Shown: one piece after another, positions 7,537 to 19,479 of the stretch | Position numbering within the stretch: the first letter of the stretch is position 1 | Layout: every line of letters begins with the position of its first letter | Assembly: GCA_903885605.1 (NCBI GenBank) | Contig: CAISJD010000117.1 | Location: 1-41,519, forward strand | From: an uncultured Chthonomonas sp. | GTDB lineage: Bacteria > Armatimonadota > Chthonomonadetes > Chthonomonadales > CAJBBX01 | DNA length: 41,519 bases | Direction of reading: 5' to 3' | Notes under the pieces: model-generated | Told to the model about the DNA's origin: nothing | What the model saw: the letters and a program-made list of their open reading frames with translations, nothing else | Databases searched by the model: none | Translations under genes and position numbers: made by a program

Positions 7537-8946
7537 TCACGGCCTCTGCGCCGGCGCGCCGAGGACGGGGTAGCTCCTACCGTCGGGCCAGAACCTGCCG
7601 GCCACGAGGTCGCCGGGGTCTTCCTGGCCGGTAGGGCGGCGCTGAGGCGTCCCGCCGTCGTCGCGCCGGTCCGGCCCGAGGCTGTAGAGCAGGAAGCCGC
7701 CGGCCGTGCGCCGGTACCGGAGCGGCGTGCCGGGGCCGGCGGCGAACGGGTCGTCCAGCATGCGGCCCATGCTTGTGGGAGCGAGGTCCGCGAGGGATGC
7801 CGGGAAGGCGCCGTGGTCGGCCCGGTAGAGGCCGAGGGCGATCTGCGTTCGGACCAGCGCCGACATGGAGCGCGCCGAGGCATCCAACATGCAGAGGCGA
7901 TCGTGGATGACCTCCTCGGCGCCGGACATGGCGGCAAGCCGGGAGGGCTTCACGCGGACACTTGCGGGCCCCGGCGATGCGAACGCCCGGGCCACCGCCT
8001 CGTGGTACCGCTGGTCCTCAAGCAGGAGCGCCCGCCGGTCGGCCAGCATCAGCCGGGCGGCCTCCAGCGCCCACGAGGCGCGCTCGCGGAACGATGGACC
8101 CGCCTGCTCGTCGAACGGGTTTGCCGGCTCAAGCAGGATCGGCCGGATCGCCACAGCGGCGTAGGCGGCGCGGCACCTCGCCGGCAGGGAGCCTCGGTCC
8201 AGTTCGCGGAGGGCGTCCTCCTGAAGCGATAGGCTCGCCCACCCCTCTTCGCGCATCACGTCCACCGTCGCCACGCGCTTGGCCTCGATCGCGTCCCAGC
8301 GCCGGGCGGCGTGCCGGAGGTCGGCGGCGGACATGCGGGGAGGCATGTCGGCGAACTGCCGGAGCGCGATGGCCTGGATGGCCTGCCCGACGAGCCAGGC
8401 GATGAGTGAGCCGTGCTGCACCATGACGCCCATCTCCACGCCGTCCAGGGCCCGATCCGCGGCCTCGCGCGGCCTCCCGCTCGCCATGAGATACCGGGAG
8501 TCGCCCGCCATGGTCCGGGCCATCTCACGGAACCGGGCGTAGGCGGGGAGCGGGCCGGCGCCGGCGAGCCCGCGCTTGGGCGGCTCCAGATAGGGCGTGG
8601 CGAGGGCCGCCCGCAGGGCCCGGAGCGCCGGCTCCGCGTCGCGATGTGCGGCGGCATAGGTGGCGTAGGTCTCGACGGCAGGCGACCAGTTGGGCATGGA
8701 GTTGGGGAAGAAGTGGCGTCTCCCCTCGAGCTTGGCGGCGGCCGCTCGGAACTGGCCGTAGGCGTTCGGCGAAGGCAGGGCGGGCCTCGGGATGTTCAGC
8801 GGCGGCGTCCGGCGGTTCGCCTCCAGCCTCCAGCCGACCGCGGCCGCCAGCGCCAGGAGTGCAACTCCAGGCACAGCGCCGAACCAGAGCCTGCGTCGCC
8901 TCTGCTTGCGAAGAGCATTGGACAGCGCCGATCCGTCAGCATCCAT
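7537..8946 (-). CDS. Membrane-anchored protein with pseudopilin-like C-terminal segment
   Basis: This 469-aa protein starts with a basic stretch (RKQRRRR) and one transmembrane helix (about residues 21-40), so most of it should face outward. The middle is alpha-helical without a recognised domain. The C-terminus carries a segment seen in many type II secretion pseudopilin-like (GspG-related) proteins of planctomycetes and armatimonads: YRADHGAFPASLADLAP, DPFAAGPGTPLRYRR, GGFLLYSLGPDRRDDGG. The ATG at 8946 has GGAGGT 6 nt upstream. It lacks the N-terminal prepilin cleavage motif, so it is probably not a pilin. The GGCCA array lies directly upstream of its start. Function unknown. Confidence 0.75.
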   Translation of the reverse strand: MDADGSALSNALRKQRRRRLWFGAVPGVALLALAAAVGWRLEANRRTPPLNIPRPALPSPNAYGQFRAAAAKLEGRRHFFPNSMPNWSPAVETYATYAAAHRDAEPALRALRAALATPYLEPPKRGLAGAGPLPAYARFREMARTMAGDSRYLMASGRPREAADRALDGVEMGVMVQHGSLIAWLVGQAIQAIALRQFADMPPRMSAADLRHAARRWDAIEAKRVATVDVMREEGWASLSLQEDALRELDRGSLPARCRAAYAAVAIRPILLEPANPFDEQAGPSFRERASWALEAARLMLADRRALLLEDQRYHEAVARAFASPGPASVRVKPSRLAAMSGAEEVIHDRLCMLDASARSMSALVRTQIALGLYRADHGAFPASLADLAPTSMGRMLDDPFAAGPGTPLRYRRTAGGFLLYSLGPDRRDDGGTPQRRPTGQEDPGDLVAGRFWPDGRSYPVLGAPAQRP

Positions 8947-9002
8947 GGTTCACCTCCGCCGCCGGGCAGCGGGACAAGTTCACGCCGATGCGCTCAGTGA
9001 CC

Positions 9003-9197
9003 GATCAAACTCCGGCCATCTTCGGCCAAACTCCGGCCAAACTCCGGCCATCTTCGGCCAGACTCCGGCCATCTTCGGCCATCTTCGGCCAGACTCCGGC
9101 CATCTTCGGCCATCTTCGGCCATCTTCGGCCAAACTCCGGCCATCTTCGGCCAAACTCCGGCCAGCAATCGACCAAAAGGCGGCCAAAAGGCGGCCA
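9003..9197. repeat. Helically phased GGCCA repeat array
   Basis: GGCCA occurs at 9014, 9024, 9035, 9046, 9056, 9067, 9077, 9087, 9098, 9108, 9118, 9128, 9139, 9149 and 9160, then GACCA at 9171, and GGCCA at 9182 and 9193; a related GATCA is at 9003. The steps are only 10 or 11 bp and average 10.5 bp, the DNA helical repeat. The units alternate between a 10-mer (CGGCCATCTT) and an 11-mer (CGGCCAAACTC or CGGCCAGACTC). The array fills almost all of the intergenic space between two leftward genes. It is open in several frames, but this is a by-product of the repeat. It may be a bent or protein-decorated DNA segment, or simply a minisatellite. Confidence 0.9.
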
Positions 9198-9204
9198 AGG
9201 TGGT

Positions 9205-10557
9205 CTAGCTCGCCTCCGGAAGAGGCGTGTAACGAACGCCTGACGTGCGGCCAGATCGCTGCAGGTGCCCTGACACCACCATCGCCGCCAGTTCCCGCCG
9301 CGCCTGGCGGTCAGAGGCGCCGAGCAACTCACGGTACTCCGCCGGCGAAATCGATCCGTGCTCATGCACATGGTCCAGCGCCTTACGTTGCCGATCACTG
9401 AGTGTTCCGGCGTGACTGGCGCCGGCCGACGCCGGTTGCGAGTCTGCCGACTGGAACCTGACTATGAACGTGCCCATCTCGTAGCGGAACTCCGGTTGCG
9501 GCAAGCCACGGTCCGCGCATGCGCGAAGGATGCGCAGGGTGCCGGTTCCCCATTGCTCAATGAGCCCCGCCCGATGGAAGGCCTCGGCGAGCCTGCGGTT
9601 GCGCGGCCGAGACGGATGCATGCCGTACAGGCTCTCGATGGTAACGTCATACGGTAGCGAGCCGGGGTTCCAGACTTCCAGTCGCTCGCGGTAGATGCGG
9701 ACCTGCACATGACCGGAACTCGTGTAGTCGCGATGGACTATGGCGTTGACGATGGCTTCTCGAACAGCCGCCTCCGGGTACTCCGGTATCTCTTCCCGCT
9801 CCGGCCGTCCGGTGATGCGGATCGCCTTGCGGGTGTTGCGGGCTACGAACGCCAGCGCCTGCCTCAACTGGGTTAGGACGGGCGCCTCGATCGTCTGCTC
9901 GTCCAGGAAGTCCACACCCACGTCGTCCCGGAAGAAGCCGCACTGCATCTGCGATCCTGCCGGCAGCCTTGATCCTTCGGCGAACAGGAGCGCGGCTGCA
10001 TTGCAGAGCTTGCCGTCGGTGAGCTGAAGCCGAAGGTTGTCCATCACGAGTTCCGTCGGGGTCGTGAGAGACCGCTGCGCCCGACTCAGGTAGTCCTCCA
10101 CCGCGTTCCGACTCAGGTGGTCGACGAGGAGACCATCACATGGATGCGCGTCCCATGTGTGACCCGTGGTGGCTTCCACCAGCCGGAGCATCTCGGCGCG
10201 CGACAGCGACTGGTTCGTCCGTCCGACGCGCTTATAGGGCTTCCCGAACGCCCAGACGGGTTTGATGGGGCTCTCTTCCGCGCGGACGGTGACGAGCAGC
10301 GGCCCATCGTCTTCAACCGAGATCGACGGAAAGACCGGCGGGTCCGTGTTGCGCCGGATGTCGTTGGCCAGGTTCTCCAGCGTGTTGGCTCCGATCGAGA
10401 CCCCGACGCGCCTGCCCTGCGGGGTGATCCCGAAACGGACGGCGCCGCCGGTCGAAGTCGAGAACGCGGCAAGAGCGACGGCCGCGTCCTTCCACTCGCT
10501 CAAGGATGCCTTGTTCTCGTTGTGCTCATCTTCCGCCCAGATCACTGTCTCATCCAT
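9205..10557 (-). CDS. AlbA_2 (Schlafen-type) domain ATP-binding putative regulator
   Basis: This 450-aa protein has the three-part build of bacterial divergent AAA_4/AlbA_2 proteins. The N-terminal AlbA_2/Schlafen-like domain covers about 1-130 (ENKASLSEWKDAAVALAAFS, GGAVRFGI). A GHKL-type ATP-binding region related to HATPase_c_4 covers about 260-360 (AAVREAIVNAIVHRDYTS, VRIYRERLEVWNPGSLP, GLIEQWGTGTLRIL). A C-terminal winged-helix region covers about 390-450 (LSDRQRKALDHVHEHGSIS, ASDRQARREL). The family is often annotated as an RNA-binding or RecG-related transcriptional regulator, and some members lie in defence islands. The start at 10557 has only a weak AAGGAA about 12 nt upstream. It is flanked by the phased array at its 3' end and a decayed gene end upstream. 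Confidence 0.85.
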   Translation of the reverse strand: MDETVIWAEDEHNENKASLSEWKDAAVALAAFSTSTGGAVRFGITPQGRRVGVSIGANTLENLANDIRRNTDPPVFPSISVEDDGPLLVTVRAEESPIKPVWAFGKPYKRVGRTNQSLSRAEMLRLVEATTGHTWDAHPCDGLLVDHLSRNAVEDYLSRAQRSLTTPTELVMDNLRLQLTDGKLCNAAALLFAEGSRLPAGSQMQCGFFRDDVGVDFLDEQTIEAPVLTQLRQALAFVARNTRKAIRITGRPEREEIPEYPEAAVREAIVNAIVHRDYTSSGHVQVRIYRERLEVWNPGSLPYDVTIESLYGMHPSRPRNRRLAEAFHRAGLIEQWGTGTLRILRACADRGLPQPEFRYEMGTFIVRFQSADSQPASAGASHAGTLSDRQRKALDHVHEHGSISPAEYRELLGASDRQARRELAAMVVSGHLQRSGRTSGVRYTPLPEAS

Positions 10558-13122: not shown

Positions 13123-16100
13123 CTACGCGGTACCGGGGCCTGCCAGCATCGCCAGGGCCTCGTCGAACCGCAGGTGGGTCACCGCCTCCCGGAGATCGGC
13201 GGCCTGGCCGTCGCCCAGAAGCCTATGGAGGCCCGCGTCCAGCTGGTCGAAGAGGGTCAGCGCCTCCATGTCATGCTTCTGGAGGGCCTGCCGCAGCTCC
13301 GCGAGCTTCTCGGGCGTCGGCTCGACCGCCTCGCCTGAGGAGGCGCGCCGGTCGGCGCCGGCCAGGGAGATCGCCGCCGCCAGCTCAGCCATCATCCGTT
13401 CGAGGCCGCCGAGCGGCTGTTCCAGGTCGGGTTCATCCCGCAGCGCAGCGGCCTCCAGCGCGGCGGCTGACGCGGCGATCCCATCGGCTCCCATGATGGC
13501 CGCGCTGCCCTTCAGGGTGTGCATGAGGCGGGCCGCCGCCTTGATGTCGCCTCCGGCCAGCCGGCGGCGGGCCCTCTCAGCCACATCGTGGAACTCCGCG
13601 GCGAAGAGGCGCACCAGGCGATCAAGGACGGTTCGGTTGCCGCCCGCGCTGCGCCACAGCCTGGCGGGATCGATGCCGGGTAGCTCGGGAAGCGCCTCCG
13701 GGTCGGCTTCAGGCGCCTCGGGCGCCTCGGCGCCGGCGACCTCAGGCAACCCCAGGCAGGACCGGACCTGTGACACCAACAGGTCGATGTCAACCGGCTT
13801 GGCCAGGACCGCGTTGACGCCGACGCCCAGGGCGGCCGCGCGTTCGGCGTCCAGGACCGCCGCCGTGAGGGCGATCACCGGCAGGTCGGTGAGGTGCAGG
13901 TCCTTCCGCATGCGCCGCGTCGCCGTGATGCCGTCCACCTCCGGCATGTGCAGGTCCATGAGCACGGCGTCATAGCGGCCAGGACCGGCGCGGAGGGCCT
14001 CCAGCGCCTCCAGCCCGTTGGCGCAGTGGTCCGCTGTGGCTCCCTCCAGCTGAAGCATAGAGAGGGCCACGTCGCGGCTGACGGCGCTGTCGTCGGCCAC
14101 CAGCAGGTGTAGCCCTCTCAGGCGTGGGCCTCGCGCCGCGGACCCGGGGCGTTCGGCCGCCGGGACGGCCGCCGGAGCCAGATCAAAGAGCGCCTCGAAC
14201 CGGAAGCAACTGCCGTGGCCCAACCGGCTCTCGGCCGTCAGTCGGCCGCCCATCGCCTCGGCCAGGCGCCGGCTGATGCTCAGGCCCAGGCCCGTGCCGC
14301 CGTACCTCCGCGTGATGTCGACATCGGCCTGCAGGAACGGCTCGAAGAGGTTCTCCAGACCCTCGGCGGCGATCCCGATGCCCGAGTCGATCACCTCGAT
14401 ACAGAGCGAAACGGCGCCCGGTCCGGCGGGATCACAGGCGGCGGCCAGCCGCACGAAGCCGGTCTCGGTGAACTTCACGGCGTTGCCCACGAGGTTGAGC
14501 AGGATCTGCTCGACCCGCAGCTCGTCGCCTATCAGGGCCGGCAGCGGCTCAGCCGGCAGGTCCAGCCTCATCTCAAGACCCTTGGCCCGGGCATCGGCCC
14601 CCATCAGGCTGGCGACACGGCCGAGCACGGCGGCCGGGTCGAAGGGCCGCGCCTCGAGCCGCATCTTGCCTGCCTCGATCTTGGAGTGGTCCAGCAGGTC
14701 GTTGAGCAGGGCGGTGAGCGTGCGGCCGGACGACTGGATCCTCGTCACCAGGGAGCGCTGTTCGGCGTCCTCCGTCTGGTGCAGCAGCACCTGCGCCAGG
14801 CCCAGCACGCCGTTCAGCGGGGTGCGGATCTCGTGGCTCATGTGTGCCAGGAACCGGCTCTTGGCGGCGTTGGCGGCCTCGGCGTCCCTGCGCGCCTCCC
14901 GCAGTTCGTGCTCGTAGCGCCGTCGCTCGGTGGTGTCCCGGGCGATGCCCTGCACGGCCACCAGCTCGTTGTCGGGGCCATACCGGCCCGACGCGGTGAC
15001 CTCCAGCCAGAGGGTGGAGCCGTCCTTGCAGGTGACCTCCAGCTCCACGCGGACGACATGGGGCGACCCCGGGGAGGCCGATGCGGTCAGGAACCCCGCC
15101 AGTTCCGCTCGCGCAAGCGCGGCCGACGCCGGCGTGAGCGCCTCATCCAGGGTCTGCGCCACGGCCTCCTCCGTGGTGTAGCCGCGCAGGCGCTCCGCCG
15201 AGGGGCTCGAGTAGGTGAAGCGCCCCGACGGGTCCATGGTGAAGATGATGTCGGTGGCGTTCTCGGCCAGCAGCCGGTACTGCTCCTCGCTGCGGCGGAG
15301 CTCCTCCTCCAGACGCTTGCGCTCGCTGATATCGCGGGAGACGACGAGCATGCCGATGTGGCGCCCCTGGTCGTTGACCATGCACGAGGCGCTCAGGTCC
15401 GCCCAGACGTAGGAGCCGTCCTTGCGCGTCTGGCGGCAGTCCATGCGGAAGGTGGGCAGCGCGGTCCCGGCCTGTATGGCCGCCCCGACCGCCGCCATGC
15501 CCGCCCGCGCCTGGGCGGCATCCTCCGGCGCGAGGACCATATCGACGGTCTGCGCCATGGCCTCCTCCGGCGTGAAGCCGCGGAAGCGCTCGACGGAGGG
15601 GCTGATGTAGAGGGCGGCCCCGTTGGTGTCCGTCATGGTGATGACGTCGGCGGAGTTGTCCGCCAGCAGCCGGTACTGCTCCTCGCGGCGGCGCAGCTCC
15701 TCCTCCAACCGCACCCGCTGCGTGACGTCGCGGGCCAGGGCTAGGAAGTGCGCCTCCGGTCCGGTCACGTCGCCCATGGCGGCGATGGAGAGCTCGAACC
15801 AGCTCCTGCCGTCGGGCAGGTCCAGCGCATAGACGGCGCCCTGGTGGGCCCCGGTCTCCGCGGCTTCCTCCACGGCGTCGGTGATGATCGCGGCCGCATC
15901 GGGCGGAAGCACCTCGGACACATGCCTGCCGACGAACTCATCCGGCTGGGCATAGAGCTTGCTGCTGAGGGGCGAGTAGCAGCCACTGATGGCTCCGTGC
16001 CGGTCGACCACGAACATGAGGTCGGGGACGGCATCCACGATGGCTTCCAGCCGCTCCTTCGTGGCCTTGAGCTCCTCGGCGGTCCGGGCCGCGTCGGTGA

Positions 16101-17499
16101 TATCGACGAAGGAGGCGATCAGCAAGTCGTCCAGCACGGCTCCGCTGATGGAGACCAGCAGCTCGGCGCCGTCCCGGCCGACGATGCGATGCTCCGCGGG
16201 CGGCACGAGACCGTCGCCCTGGGCGGCCCGGGCCACCGCGGCGGACCACCAGTCGAGGGCCGTCCTGCGCGCCGCCTCGTCGGGGATGGACTGCTCCATG
16301 GCCGACCGGAGGGTCGGCGCCTCGGCCTCGGTGAAGCCGAAGACCCGGCGGTACCGCTGGTTCACGAACAAGGTTTCGGCGTCGGGTGATCGTGAGATGC
16401 CCGCCACGGCCGTGGGCAGGTTGTCCAGGATACGGCGCAGGCGTTGCGTGTCGGCCCGGGCCCGCTCCTCAAGGACGACCTGCACGGTATGCGCCTGCCG
16501 CTCATGGAGTAGGAAGGCCCCGGTGGCCGCCGCGAGCATGGCCAGGAGGCCTGCCAATCCGATGCCCAGCGAGATGGGCAGGGCGGCGCCGGTGACCTCC
16601 GATCGGTCCATCTTGGCTCCCAGGAACCAGTCGGTGCCCTCGACGGCGTGCCCGACCGACACGACCGGCCGGCCGCGGTAGTCCAAGGCATCGCCCAGAC
16701 CGGCGTTGGAGTAGCCGGCCTCCACGAACCTGGCGGCGCCCAGGCGGTTGCCCTTGATGGGAGCCCGGAACCGCATGGCCGAGCCGGGCCGGAAGCGGAG
16801 ATCGGTAAGGAAGAGGACGGTGTCGCCCTCCCGGCGGCAGAGCACCGTCTCAGCCGTCTGTGATGGGATGGGCCACGTGCGCACGATGGTGAAGAGGGAC
16901 CGGGCAGGGTCGGAGCGCATCACCAACACGAGCGCGCGTCTGCCGTGCGAAGCCCGGAGCGGAACCACGAAGTCGACCCAAGCCCGCCCGGCGCCGTCCA
17001 GATAGGGCCCGGCCTGCGTCACGGCGCCGGTTCCCCGGGCGCGCATGGCCGCCCCGCGGAGCGGAGGCGCCACATCGGGCACGGTGTGCGACATCGTCCA
17101 GACGGGCTTCAGGCCGGGGTCCAGGAGCAGGGCGTCGTCCCAGCAGTGGTGGTCCAGGGAGAGCGTCAGGCGGCGCTCCAACTCGGAGCCGGCGGCCGCG
17201 CCGGAGCCCGCCACCACCATCCCGGCGGCATCGGCCACGGCCGCGCGGGCCTGCTTCTGCAGCGCGTCGTTGCGCCGCTCGGCCACCCACTCCTCGACCT
17301 GGGTCGCCCGCATCTGGGCGATGGCGCCGAGCGAGTCGATACCGCGCTGGTACTCGTTCCGCCATGTCCCCCAGATGGCCGCCCCGGCCATGGCCGCGAT
17401 GCTCAGGCAGATGATGGCCAGAGGCGTCAGAAGCGCCCGGCGATCCGAACGCTTCCGGGCTTCAGGCGGCGGCGGGGCTTGGGCGGCGGCAGGCGTCAT
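13123..17499 (-). CDS. Hybrid sensor histidine kinase with multiple PAS domains, REC and HPt
   Basis: This 1458-aa membrane sensor has transmembrane helices at about 22-45 and 305-331 that bracket a periplasmic sensing domain. Four PAS-type domains span about 350-860. They are joined by repeated [14 protein letters not shown] linkers, which suggests internal PAS duplication. The dimerisation/phosphoacceptor domain carries [16 protein letters not shown] (His near 889). The ATPase N-box is [15 protein letters not shown], with glycine-rich [11 protein letters not shown] receiver domain follows ([11 protein letters not shown], Asp near 1181), and an HPt domain ([13 protein letters not shown], His near 1328) completes an unorthodox phosphorelay. 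The start lies 12 bp after the upstream kinase gene's stop, so the two are probably cotranscribed. The output partner is not in the window. Confidence 0.95.
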
Positions 17500-17511: not shown

Positions 17512-19479
17512 TCAGGATCGGCGCGCCCCCAGTGAACGGAGCAGGGCGTCGCGCAGTTCGGCTCTTTTGAAAGGCTTGGCCAGGTAGACATCCGGCCATT
17601 CGGCGTGCTCGCCCGACATGACCTCGGCCTGATCGTAGCCGCTGATGAGGACGGCGGGCAGCCCCGGCGCCAGCTTGCGGATTTGGGCCAGCGTCTCCCA
17701 GCCATCCATGCGGGGCATGGAGACATCGCTGACGAGGCAGCGGACGCCCGCCGGATGTGCGCGGTAGGCCTCCAGGGCCTCGACGCCGTCGCCGGCCTCC
17801 ACGACGGTGTAGCCCAGCCGCCTGAGGACCGCCCGGGTGGAGATGCGGAACGCGGGTTCGTCGTCCACCAGCAGCACGACGCCGCCCTCCTCCGCCGCCG
17901 GGGCCTCCTGGGCCGCGGGCCGCGGCGGGGCCTCCTCGGAGAGGGGCAGCAGCAGATGGAAGCGGCTTCCGTGGCCCGGCCGGCTCTCCACCGTGACGCC
18001 GCCGCCGTGCCCTCGGGCGATACCGGCGACCGTTGAGAGGCCGAGCCCGCGACCGGTGAACTTGGTGGTGAAGAAGGGATCGAACACCTTCTCAAGGTCG
18101 GTCTCGGCGATGCCGGCGCCCTCGTCGGCCACCTCGATGCAGGCGTACCGGCGCGCCTCGGGCTGCCAGACCGAAGGGGCGCGGTGAGGCCCCACGGCCT
18201 CCGGCCCGCACTCTGCCACGCGGAGGCGAACCGTGCCGCCCCCGTCGCCGACGGCCTCGGCGGCGTTCGTCACCAGTTGCGCGATGGCCTGCTCAAGCTG
18301 CTCGGTGTTGGCCCGAACCTGCGGCCCGGCCTCGGGAAGCTCCAGGTCGATGCGGACGGCCTCCGGTATGCGCGCCCGGATGCCCGGCAGGATCATCCTG
18401 CATGCCTGGGACAGGTCCATGGGGTCCATGTGCCCGGGGGTCTGGCCGACGTAGGTGAGAAGCGTCGCCGAGAGCCTGGCGGCGCGATCGGCGGCGGCCA
18501 TGGCGGCGCTCAGCTCCTGCCGCGCGGGAACGTCCTCGGGCAGGCCGTCCTGCAGCAGCTCCAGGTTGGAGAGAAGGGCGCCGAGCAGGTTGTTGTAGAG
18601 GTGGGCGATGGCCCCGGCCATGCGGTTCAGCCCGTCGGCCTTCTGCACCTGCAGGTCGCGGGCGGCCCTGGCCTCGCGCTCGACGGCCGCCTGGTGGCGG
18701 TCCGTGACATCGCGCCACGTGACGCTCAGCGCCTTACCGGAGCGGGAGGCTCGGACGTCGAACCGGCGCGCGCAACCCGGGCGGCCACACGGGCAGGGGA
18801 TGTCATCCATCCGGGCCGGTTGCCCGCTCTCGATGGCGGCGATCAACGCGGCCAGGAGGTCCGTCCCGACGAGGTGCGGGGCCACGGAGAGGAGGCGCCG
18901 GCCGGGCAGGTCCGTCGCAGCGGAGGAGAAGTCCACCGCCGCGCCCGCGTTGGCGTAGCGGAAGGCCAGGTCGGTCACCGCGCCGAAGTCGTCGCGCACG
19001 GCCTCGAACACGACGTGGGGGTCGAGGAGCGAATCCAGCGTGGCGGCCAGCCGGCTCCGCTCCTCCTCGGCGGCCGCGCGCGCTCCGGCCTCACGGAGGA
19101 AGAGCTCCCGGAGCCGAAGCTGCAGGTCCACTCGCGCACGGACCACGGGCGGGTTGAAGGGCTTGGTGATGAAGTCGACGGCGCCGGCCTCCAGCGCGCG
19201 GACCTCGGCGGCAGGCTCGGAGGCGGCGGTGACGAAGATGACGGCGGTATCCGGGCGAGCGGCACGGAGCGCCCGGCATAGCTCGTAGCCGTCCATCTCG
19301 GGCATCGTGGCATCCAGGAGCGCCAGGTCGAAGTCCACTCCGTCCGCAAGCCGGAGGGCGTCGCGGCCGGAGAGCGCGAACCGGACGCGCCCCATGCCCT
19401 CCACGGCGGCGTGCAGCGCGTGAATAGCCGCCGCGTCATCATCAACAATCAGGATTGCCGGCTCACGCTCCACGGTCAT
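17512..19479 (-). CDS. REC-PAS-histidine kinase-REC signalling protein
   Basis: This 655-aa soluble protein has an N-terminal receiver (acidic pocket VDDD at 13-15, phospho-acceptor Asp56 in LLDATMP, Lys in ITKPF). A helical linker and PAS-like domain (about 135-270) follow; this contains a cysteine cluster CPCGRPGC. The kinase core has an H-box variant IAHLYNNLLGALL where DFNN is usual, an N-box-like LVTNAAEAV, and GRGLGLSTVAGI. A C-terminal receiver has Asp585 in VSDVSMPRMDG. With receivers at both ends it can take and pass phosphate, probably to or from the membrane kinase encoded immediately downstream. A weak GGAG lies 10 nt before the ATG at 19479. No transmembrane segment is seen. Confidence 0.93.
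   Translation of the reverse strand: MTVEREPAILIVDDDAAAIHALHAAVEGMGRVRFALSGRDALRLADGVDFDLALLDATMPEMDGYELCRALRAARPDTAVIFVTAASEPAAEVRALEAGAVDFITKPFNPPVVRARVDLQLRLRELFLREAGARAAAEEERSRLAATLDSLLDPHVVFEAVRDDFGAVTDLAFRYANAGAAVDFSSAATDLPGRRLLSVAPHLVGTDLLAALIAAIESGQPARMDDIPCPCGRPGCARRFDVRASRSGKALSVTWRDVTDRHQAAVEREARAARDLQVQKADGLNRMAGAIAHLYNNLLGALLSNLELLQDGLPEDVPARQELSAAMAAADRAARLSATLLTYVGQTPGHMDPMDLSQACRMILPGIRARIPEAVRIDLELPEAGPQVRANTEQLEQAIAQLVTNAAEAVGDGGGTVRLRVAECGPEAVGPHRAPSVWQPEARRYACIEVADEGAGIAETDLEKVFDPFFTTKFTGRGLGLSTVAGIARGHGGGVTVESRPGHGSRFHLLLPLSEEAPPRPAAQEAPAAEEGGVVLLVDDEPAFRISTRAVLRRLGYTVVEAGDGVEALEAYRAHPAGVRCLVSDVSMPRMDGWETLAQIRKLAPGLPAVLISGYDQAEVMSGEHAEWPDVYLAKPFKRAELRDALLRSLGARRS

Follow-up and report, generated by a model that had tools for sequence, protein, structure and literature searches.

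According to the accessible text of PMC12839542, proteins in which a Schlafen RNase is joined to a minimal histidine-kinase ATPase and a winged helix-turn-helix (wHTH) domain occur in BREX and related defence loci. The protein described here has the same three-domain architecture and its homologues are also found in type I restriction operons, but in the part of its surroundings examined no recognised defence gene lies beside it (none of the window neighbours searched gave a defence-gene match), it carries a proline at the third acid of the Schlafen domain, and the repeat array that accompanies it is absent from the accessible description of the BREX-type proteins (PMC12839542). TrlG, an AlbA_2 and HATPase_c_4 protein of the Photorhabdus temperature-restriction locus with a measured phenotype (PMC7554251), has these two domains in common with our protein, but its plasmid relatives (L135 and L136), unlike the gene studied here, have neither a winged helix nor an array. 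The closest solved structure, in sequence (E=4.9e-11) as well as in fold (Z 25.5), is 3lmm from Corynebacterium diphtheriae, whose title names no DNA. Direct repeats placed beside the gene of their binder are characteristic of ParR/parC centromeres and Rep/iteron origins, and those in parC of R1 are 11 bp long. Our case differs in its proteins and in the location of the array, which is found in linker codons or past the stop codon and whose sequence varies along with an exchangeable winged helix. The TAACTGA heptamers of Beggiatoaceae are also short direct repeats, but they have a 7-bp period and occupy numerous loci in each genome, mostly 5' of start codons (PMC4679880). In the accessible published texts, bioRxiv preprints being outside the scope, we found no work combining AlbA_2, Schlafen and tandem repeats and no description of arrays with COG2865 or PF04326/PF13749 proteins.

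The array was analysed within a window of 41,519 nucleotides (the whole stretch of DNA considered) from an uncultured Chthonomonas sp., in which the following features are relevant:

9205 to 10557, minus strand: gene of a COG2865-like Schlafen AlbA_2 / GHKL-ATPase / winged-helix protein of 450 aa (Pfam PF04326, E=1.6e-8; PF13749, E=5.8e-24)
10204 to 10533, minus strand: Schlafen AlbA_2 domain, residues 9-118 (PF04326, above cut-off)
9454 to 9711, minus strand: HATPase_c_4 / GHKL-type ATPase domain (PF13749)
9208 to 9405, minus strand: C-terminal winged helix, residues 385-450, putative binder of the array (AlphaFold2 and structural matches)
9002 to 9197, minus strand: array of 19 CGGCCA-like sites, with core TGGCCG on the minus (coding) strand and a variable spacer of 4-5 bp
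7537 to 8946, minus strand: next downstream gene, encoding a membrane protein of 469 aa, with no Pfam, NCBIfam or PADLOC match

The AlphaFold2 model of the 450-aa protein has a mean pLDDT of 93, and its C-terminal winged helix (H388-400, H405-412, H416-428, E432-435 and E442-445) matches ArsR, MarR, CadC and Z-alpha structures with Z about 10 and an rmsd of 1.4-3 A over 60-75 residues, while the ATPase domain matches SpoIIAB (Z 10.3) and histidine-kinase ATPase domains. The E-x4-E-x-K signature of the AlbA_2 domain (E9, E14 and K16) is invariant in the 50 aligned homologues (50/50). At alignment position 46, 39 of these 50 have an aspartate, the third acid, which we take to be the SLFN active-site acid; since the window protein has P46 in its place, its predicted activity as a nuclease is uncertain.

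A preliminary description of this DNA had reported a GGCCA array with a spacing of about 10.5 bp, and this array is real and slightly longer than thought. On the plus strand the sites start at 9002, 9013, 9023, 9034, 9045, 9055, 9066, 9076, 9086, 9097, 9107, 9117, 9127, 9138, 9148, 9159, 9170, 9181 and 9192, so that all 18 steps are of 10 or 11 bp, with a mean of 10.56 bp. They read CGGCCA, or CGACCA/CGATCA in the outer units; GGCCA is exact in 17 of the 19, and the longest in-phase run is 15. The minus strand shows the following units:

TGGCCGAAGA: 10 bp, eight times
TGGCCGGAGTT/C: 11 bp, seven times
TGGCCGCCTTT: 11 bp, twice, adjoining the stop codon
TGGTCGATTGC and TGATCGGTCAC: degenerate units

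Positions 1, 2, 5 and 6 of the core are the same in 19/19 units, position 3 in 18 and position 4 in 17, and TGGCCG is nearly invariant even in the degenerate outer units, unlike the spacer positions 7-10, which are variable. Tandem Repeats Finder (TRF) scores the block at 167-233 with periods of 10, 21 and 31. The array was specific to this place: no GGCCA elsewhere in the window has a neighbour at 10 or 11 bp; three in-phase GGCCA occur once more in the 5.6-Mb genome, with unrelated spacers; and the pattern TGGCCGRAGN{1,3}TGGCCG has 14 matches in that genome, every one inside the array. A search of the 5.6-Mb genome for other copies, as had been suggested, thus found neither paired units nor other array DNA outside it, and the repeat was limited to its own array in the three genomes checked (3/3).

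The array belongs with the Schlafen/winged-helix gene and not with the membrane-protein gene to which it had originally been linked. It is indeed 5' of the latter, whose start codon at 8946 lies about 55 bp beyond it, but this link is only positional, as the array is directly 3' of the Schlafen gene, begins 7 bp past its stop codon TAG (9207-9205) and is entered by its transcription. No sigma-70-like promoter was found, no relatives of the downstream gene were found in viral contigs, and the array may or may not regulate it. In the same-genus genomes no close copy of the Schlafen gene was detected, one (G001) having only a distant tail-less homologue and the other (G002) none at threshold. Two loci without the winged helix, one from the window's own genome (L011, G000:C148) and one from the same-genus genome (L030, G001:C161), are followed directly by a gene that begins like a ParA-type ATPase (NNKGGVGKT). 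The window's genome also contains a 78-bp tandem repeat of 3.7 copies (L012:3570-3854) with an inverted repeat, AAGGGACTCACTT ... AAGTGAGTCCCTT, inside it. Elsewhere in the window, a 1458-aa hybrid histidine kinase with several PAS, receiver and Hpt domains is encoded at 13123-17499 on the minus strand, next to a further gene for a kinase with receiver domains (17512-19479).

We then compared the 3' parts of homologous genes from 150 related genomes, 80 genome contigs covering many bacterial and archaeal phyla, and three viral contigs, searching a zone that covers 360 bp on the 5' side of the stop codon and 200 bp on its 3' side for periods of 9-13 at a TRF score of at least 40, with 988 equal-size windows elsewhere in the same loci as controls. 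Most of these loci come from metagenome-assembled genomes, and tail-bearing queries served as the reference for ranking the homologues by similarity. An array was present in 84 of the 98 homologues bearing the winged-helix tail vs 32 of the 988 control windows, and at a TRF score of at least 50 in 73/98 vs 7/988 (Fisher p=5e-83, related sequences not being independent). The other 14 tail-bearing homologues had no array above threshold, and neither did any in the small set of ten tail-less homologues (0/10, p=5e-8). No TRF array was found in the phage and plasmid homologues with distant tails (Gordonia phage, Staphylococcus epidermidis and Aeromonas). The homologues lie mostly on genome contigs, often within type I restriction operons: the downstream neighbour is hsdR-type in about 10/43 and a Methylase_S (type I specificity) gene is upstream in 4/41, and on complete plasmids the gene is located between hsdS/KAP NTPase and hsdR, or before hsdM. 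Some other repeats were observed in the survey. A scan of the viral contigs for the CAAGTCACCCC pattern gave four loci, and in a Muribaculaceae genome CCCAATATGAGC is repeated 16 times past the stop codon (L124:5350-5545), among the longest arrays seen. Near the region of one tail-less homologue there is a 129-bp tandem repeat of 5.9 copies (L034:1-756). In five loci (L115, L119, L059, L047 and L103) a second array of another unit lies near the first, around the stop codon, as in L115 with ATGATACTAAAA in the linker and ATGAGCCCCAAA past the stop codon; such second arrays are possibly the remnant address of an earlier winged helix.

Two sites were occupied by the arrays of the homologues, either the codons of the linker joining ATPase domain and winged helix (in a few cases the extreme C-terminus) or the region across or just past the stop codon. 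All arrays above the threshold of 40 have a period of 10-12; with the period unrestricted, the base periods in the zone were 10 (8 arrays), 11 (23) and 12 (47), with 6 others that are mostly multiples, and those outside the zone in the same loci were scattered. The period depends on the site, since coding arrays have a period of 12 (44) or 11 (9) and never 10, while the 31 arrays at or after the stop codon have periods of 10 (8), 11 (16) and 12 (7) (Fisher p=9e-8). Of the multiples of three, 12 comes closest to one helical turn after 9, and it gives tetrapeptide repeats; VTPQ, VGEK and ETAN are repeated in frame in the linkers of many homologues. The nine coding arrays of 11 bp encode no repeated short peptide, which suggests that selection acts on the DNA and not on the peptide. 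Read most simply, the DNA array is what is maintained and the reading frame bends its period.

Variation in the array unit goes with variation in the winged helix, not with that in the remainder of the protein. Units are entirely different between distant homologues and common to pairs with similar winged helices: a match of 7 or 8 of the 8 bases was found in 7% of the pairs with unrelated tails vs about 75% of those with a tail similarity above 0.5. In partial Mantel tests with trimmed tails, the correlation over all arrays was 0.28 between unit and winged helix given the body of the protein (0/2000 permutations) and 0.02 between unit and body given the winged helix; the respective values were 0.35 and -0.02 for the linker arrays (between body and winged helix), and 0.23 and -0.06 when close relatives were removed. 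In the 33 arrays at or after the stop codon or at the extreme C-terminus they were 0.10 (36/2000) and 0.16 (0/2000), and it is in the at/after-stop class, with its weaker and mixed winged-helix signal, that the window's array falls. Moreover, because tail and array adjoin, joint transfer could add to the covariation.

Individual cases are in line with these tests. The bodies of two homologues, L015 and L045, are 92% identical, but their winged helices share only 47% identity and their arrays differ. L126, in turn, has a body 32% identical to that of L015, a winged helix 65% identical to that of L015 and the same unit, CAAGTCACCCCA; these apparent natural domain swaps agree with a unit that follows the winged helix. 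Two plasmid homologues from outside the set used for the statistics carry the unit of their winged-helix group: that of Deinococcus radiophilus (winged helix with IPDKPTSRLQKY) has CCCCCCAAGTCA three times, and that of Aliarcobacter cryaerophilus (IGGAKGGHWEI) has 2.8 copies of AAACTAGGGTAA. Against this pattern, the tail in the set that is nearest to that of the window protein (L018) goes with a different unit, the GGCC core alone being in common. The related proteins L021 and L092 have their unit in opposite orientations, and inverted copies occur within 150 bp downstream in 5 of 33 3' arrays vs 1 and 1 in the controls, which are small numbers; both observations are as duplex DNA would predict.

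Since repeat and DNA-binding tail vary in concert, the protein most likely docks on these repeats itself. We propose, with a probability of about 0.77, that the array, encoded in cis, consists of sites to which the C-terminal winged helix of the preceding gene's product binds. Several copies of the protein would bind adjacent sites about one helical turn apart and would thereby be arranged on approximately the same side of the double helix, at the gene that encodes them. This keeps from the preliminary description the action of the array at the DNA level with a spacing of about one helical turn and, between the curved and the protein-wrapped DNA that it had proposed, makes protein binding the most likely. 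The purpose of such docking is less certain. It could be autoregulatory, with a roadblock or repressing complex on the protein's own transcription unit. The unit was not enriched near gene starts (1 forward, 1 inverted and 1 control hit), so it is not the usual promoter operator where an ordinary autorepressor would bind; a roadblock or control of read-through within the operon fits better, as does docking of the protein at the gene that encodes it. Docking might also retain the Schlafen-type RNase in cis, to be freed by a defence signal. That such an effector would stay bound to its own gene until the cell is infected is an appealing but speculative model.

Among the other explanations, the one that survives best, although we consider it unlikely, is that the Schlafen/AlbA_2 domain or the winged helix binds its own transcript through repeats in the 3' UTR or the coding sequence. 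Every array is in the gene or directly downstream, within one transcript, and Schlafen AlbA_2 domains act on RNA (SLFN structures were among the structural matches), but the opposite orientations in related genes and the inverted copies speak against it, as do a period near one turn of B-DNA and a specificity that tracks the winged helix, mostly a DNA-binding fold, and not the AlbA_2 domain.

Very little remains, in our opinion, for intrinsically curved or nucleosome-like DNA, selected for an exact 10.5-bp phase and serving the promoter of the membrane-protein gene. The mean step over the 18 steps and the closeness of the array to the start codon at 8946 would agree with it. However, the runs of AAA claimed for every unit are found, as runs of at least three A, in 7 of 19 units, and A4 runs occur only twice in 197 bp (9175 and 9186), so that the array has no phased A-tracts and curvature by A-runs is not supported. 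Nor does the exact phase seem to be selected, since in homologous arrays periods of 11 and 12 (the latter mostly in coding sequence) are commoner than 10, an outcome that the preliminary description itself had named as speaking against a structural role, and the mixture of 10- and 11-mers that had been taken as a sign of such selection is made up of copies of two kinds of unit (TGGCCGAAGA and TGGCCGGAGTT/C) in no regular order, resembling the duplication of 10-, 21- and 31-bp blocks. Furthermore, no promoter was detected, and the arrays go with the Schlafen/winged-helix gene, often inside it, and not with the next gene.

An equally poor candidate is a centromere- or iteron-like site by which a mobile element would be partitioned or replicated. 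The arrangement of 10-12 bp direct repeats next to a binder's gene recalls ParR/parC and Rep/iteron systems, but no partition or replication gene was recognised beside the array in the window, and the location of the homologues, mostly on genome contigs and often in type I restriction operons, does not favour it. A role at the protein level, in which a repetitive flexible linker or tail (VTPQ, VGEK or ETAN) is what matters and the DNA repeat is a by-product, is a little weaker still. The in-frame tetrapeptides are common among homologues, but the 31 arrays at or after the stop codon, the window's among them, contradict it as a general explanation, and the nine 11-bp coding arrays and the unit that follows the winged helix also oppose it. 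Finally, a neutral slippage product or functionless dead repeat, for which the block-like order of the window's units could be invoked, is already contradicted by the same placement relative to one protein family across many phyla, the narrow period range, the conserved core and the covariation with the winged helix, and we give it almost no credit.

Returning to the row of binding sites for the winged helix, a wider and much more tentative extension, which we think possible but not probable, is a prokaryote-wide system of self-addressing. Schlafen-type effectors with an exchangeable winged helix, and the matching array encoded beside it, would dock on their own gene wherever they are transferred; docking would silence the effector in cis and sense the loss, transcription or damage of that DNA, and protein and address would evolve and move together. 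The family has a wide distribution and a connection with anti-phage defence. For almost all of its members the binding site would be readable from the gene itself, giving a directly testable handle. The many pairs of winged helix and cognate site could serve to derive recognition rules, and a DNA array placed in coding sequence would account for the tetrapeptide repeats in the proteins as its side effect.
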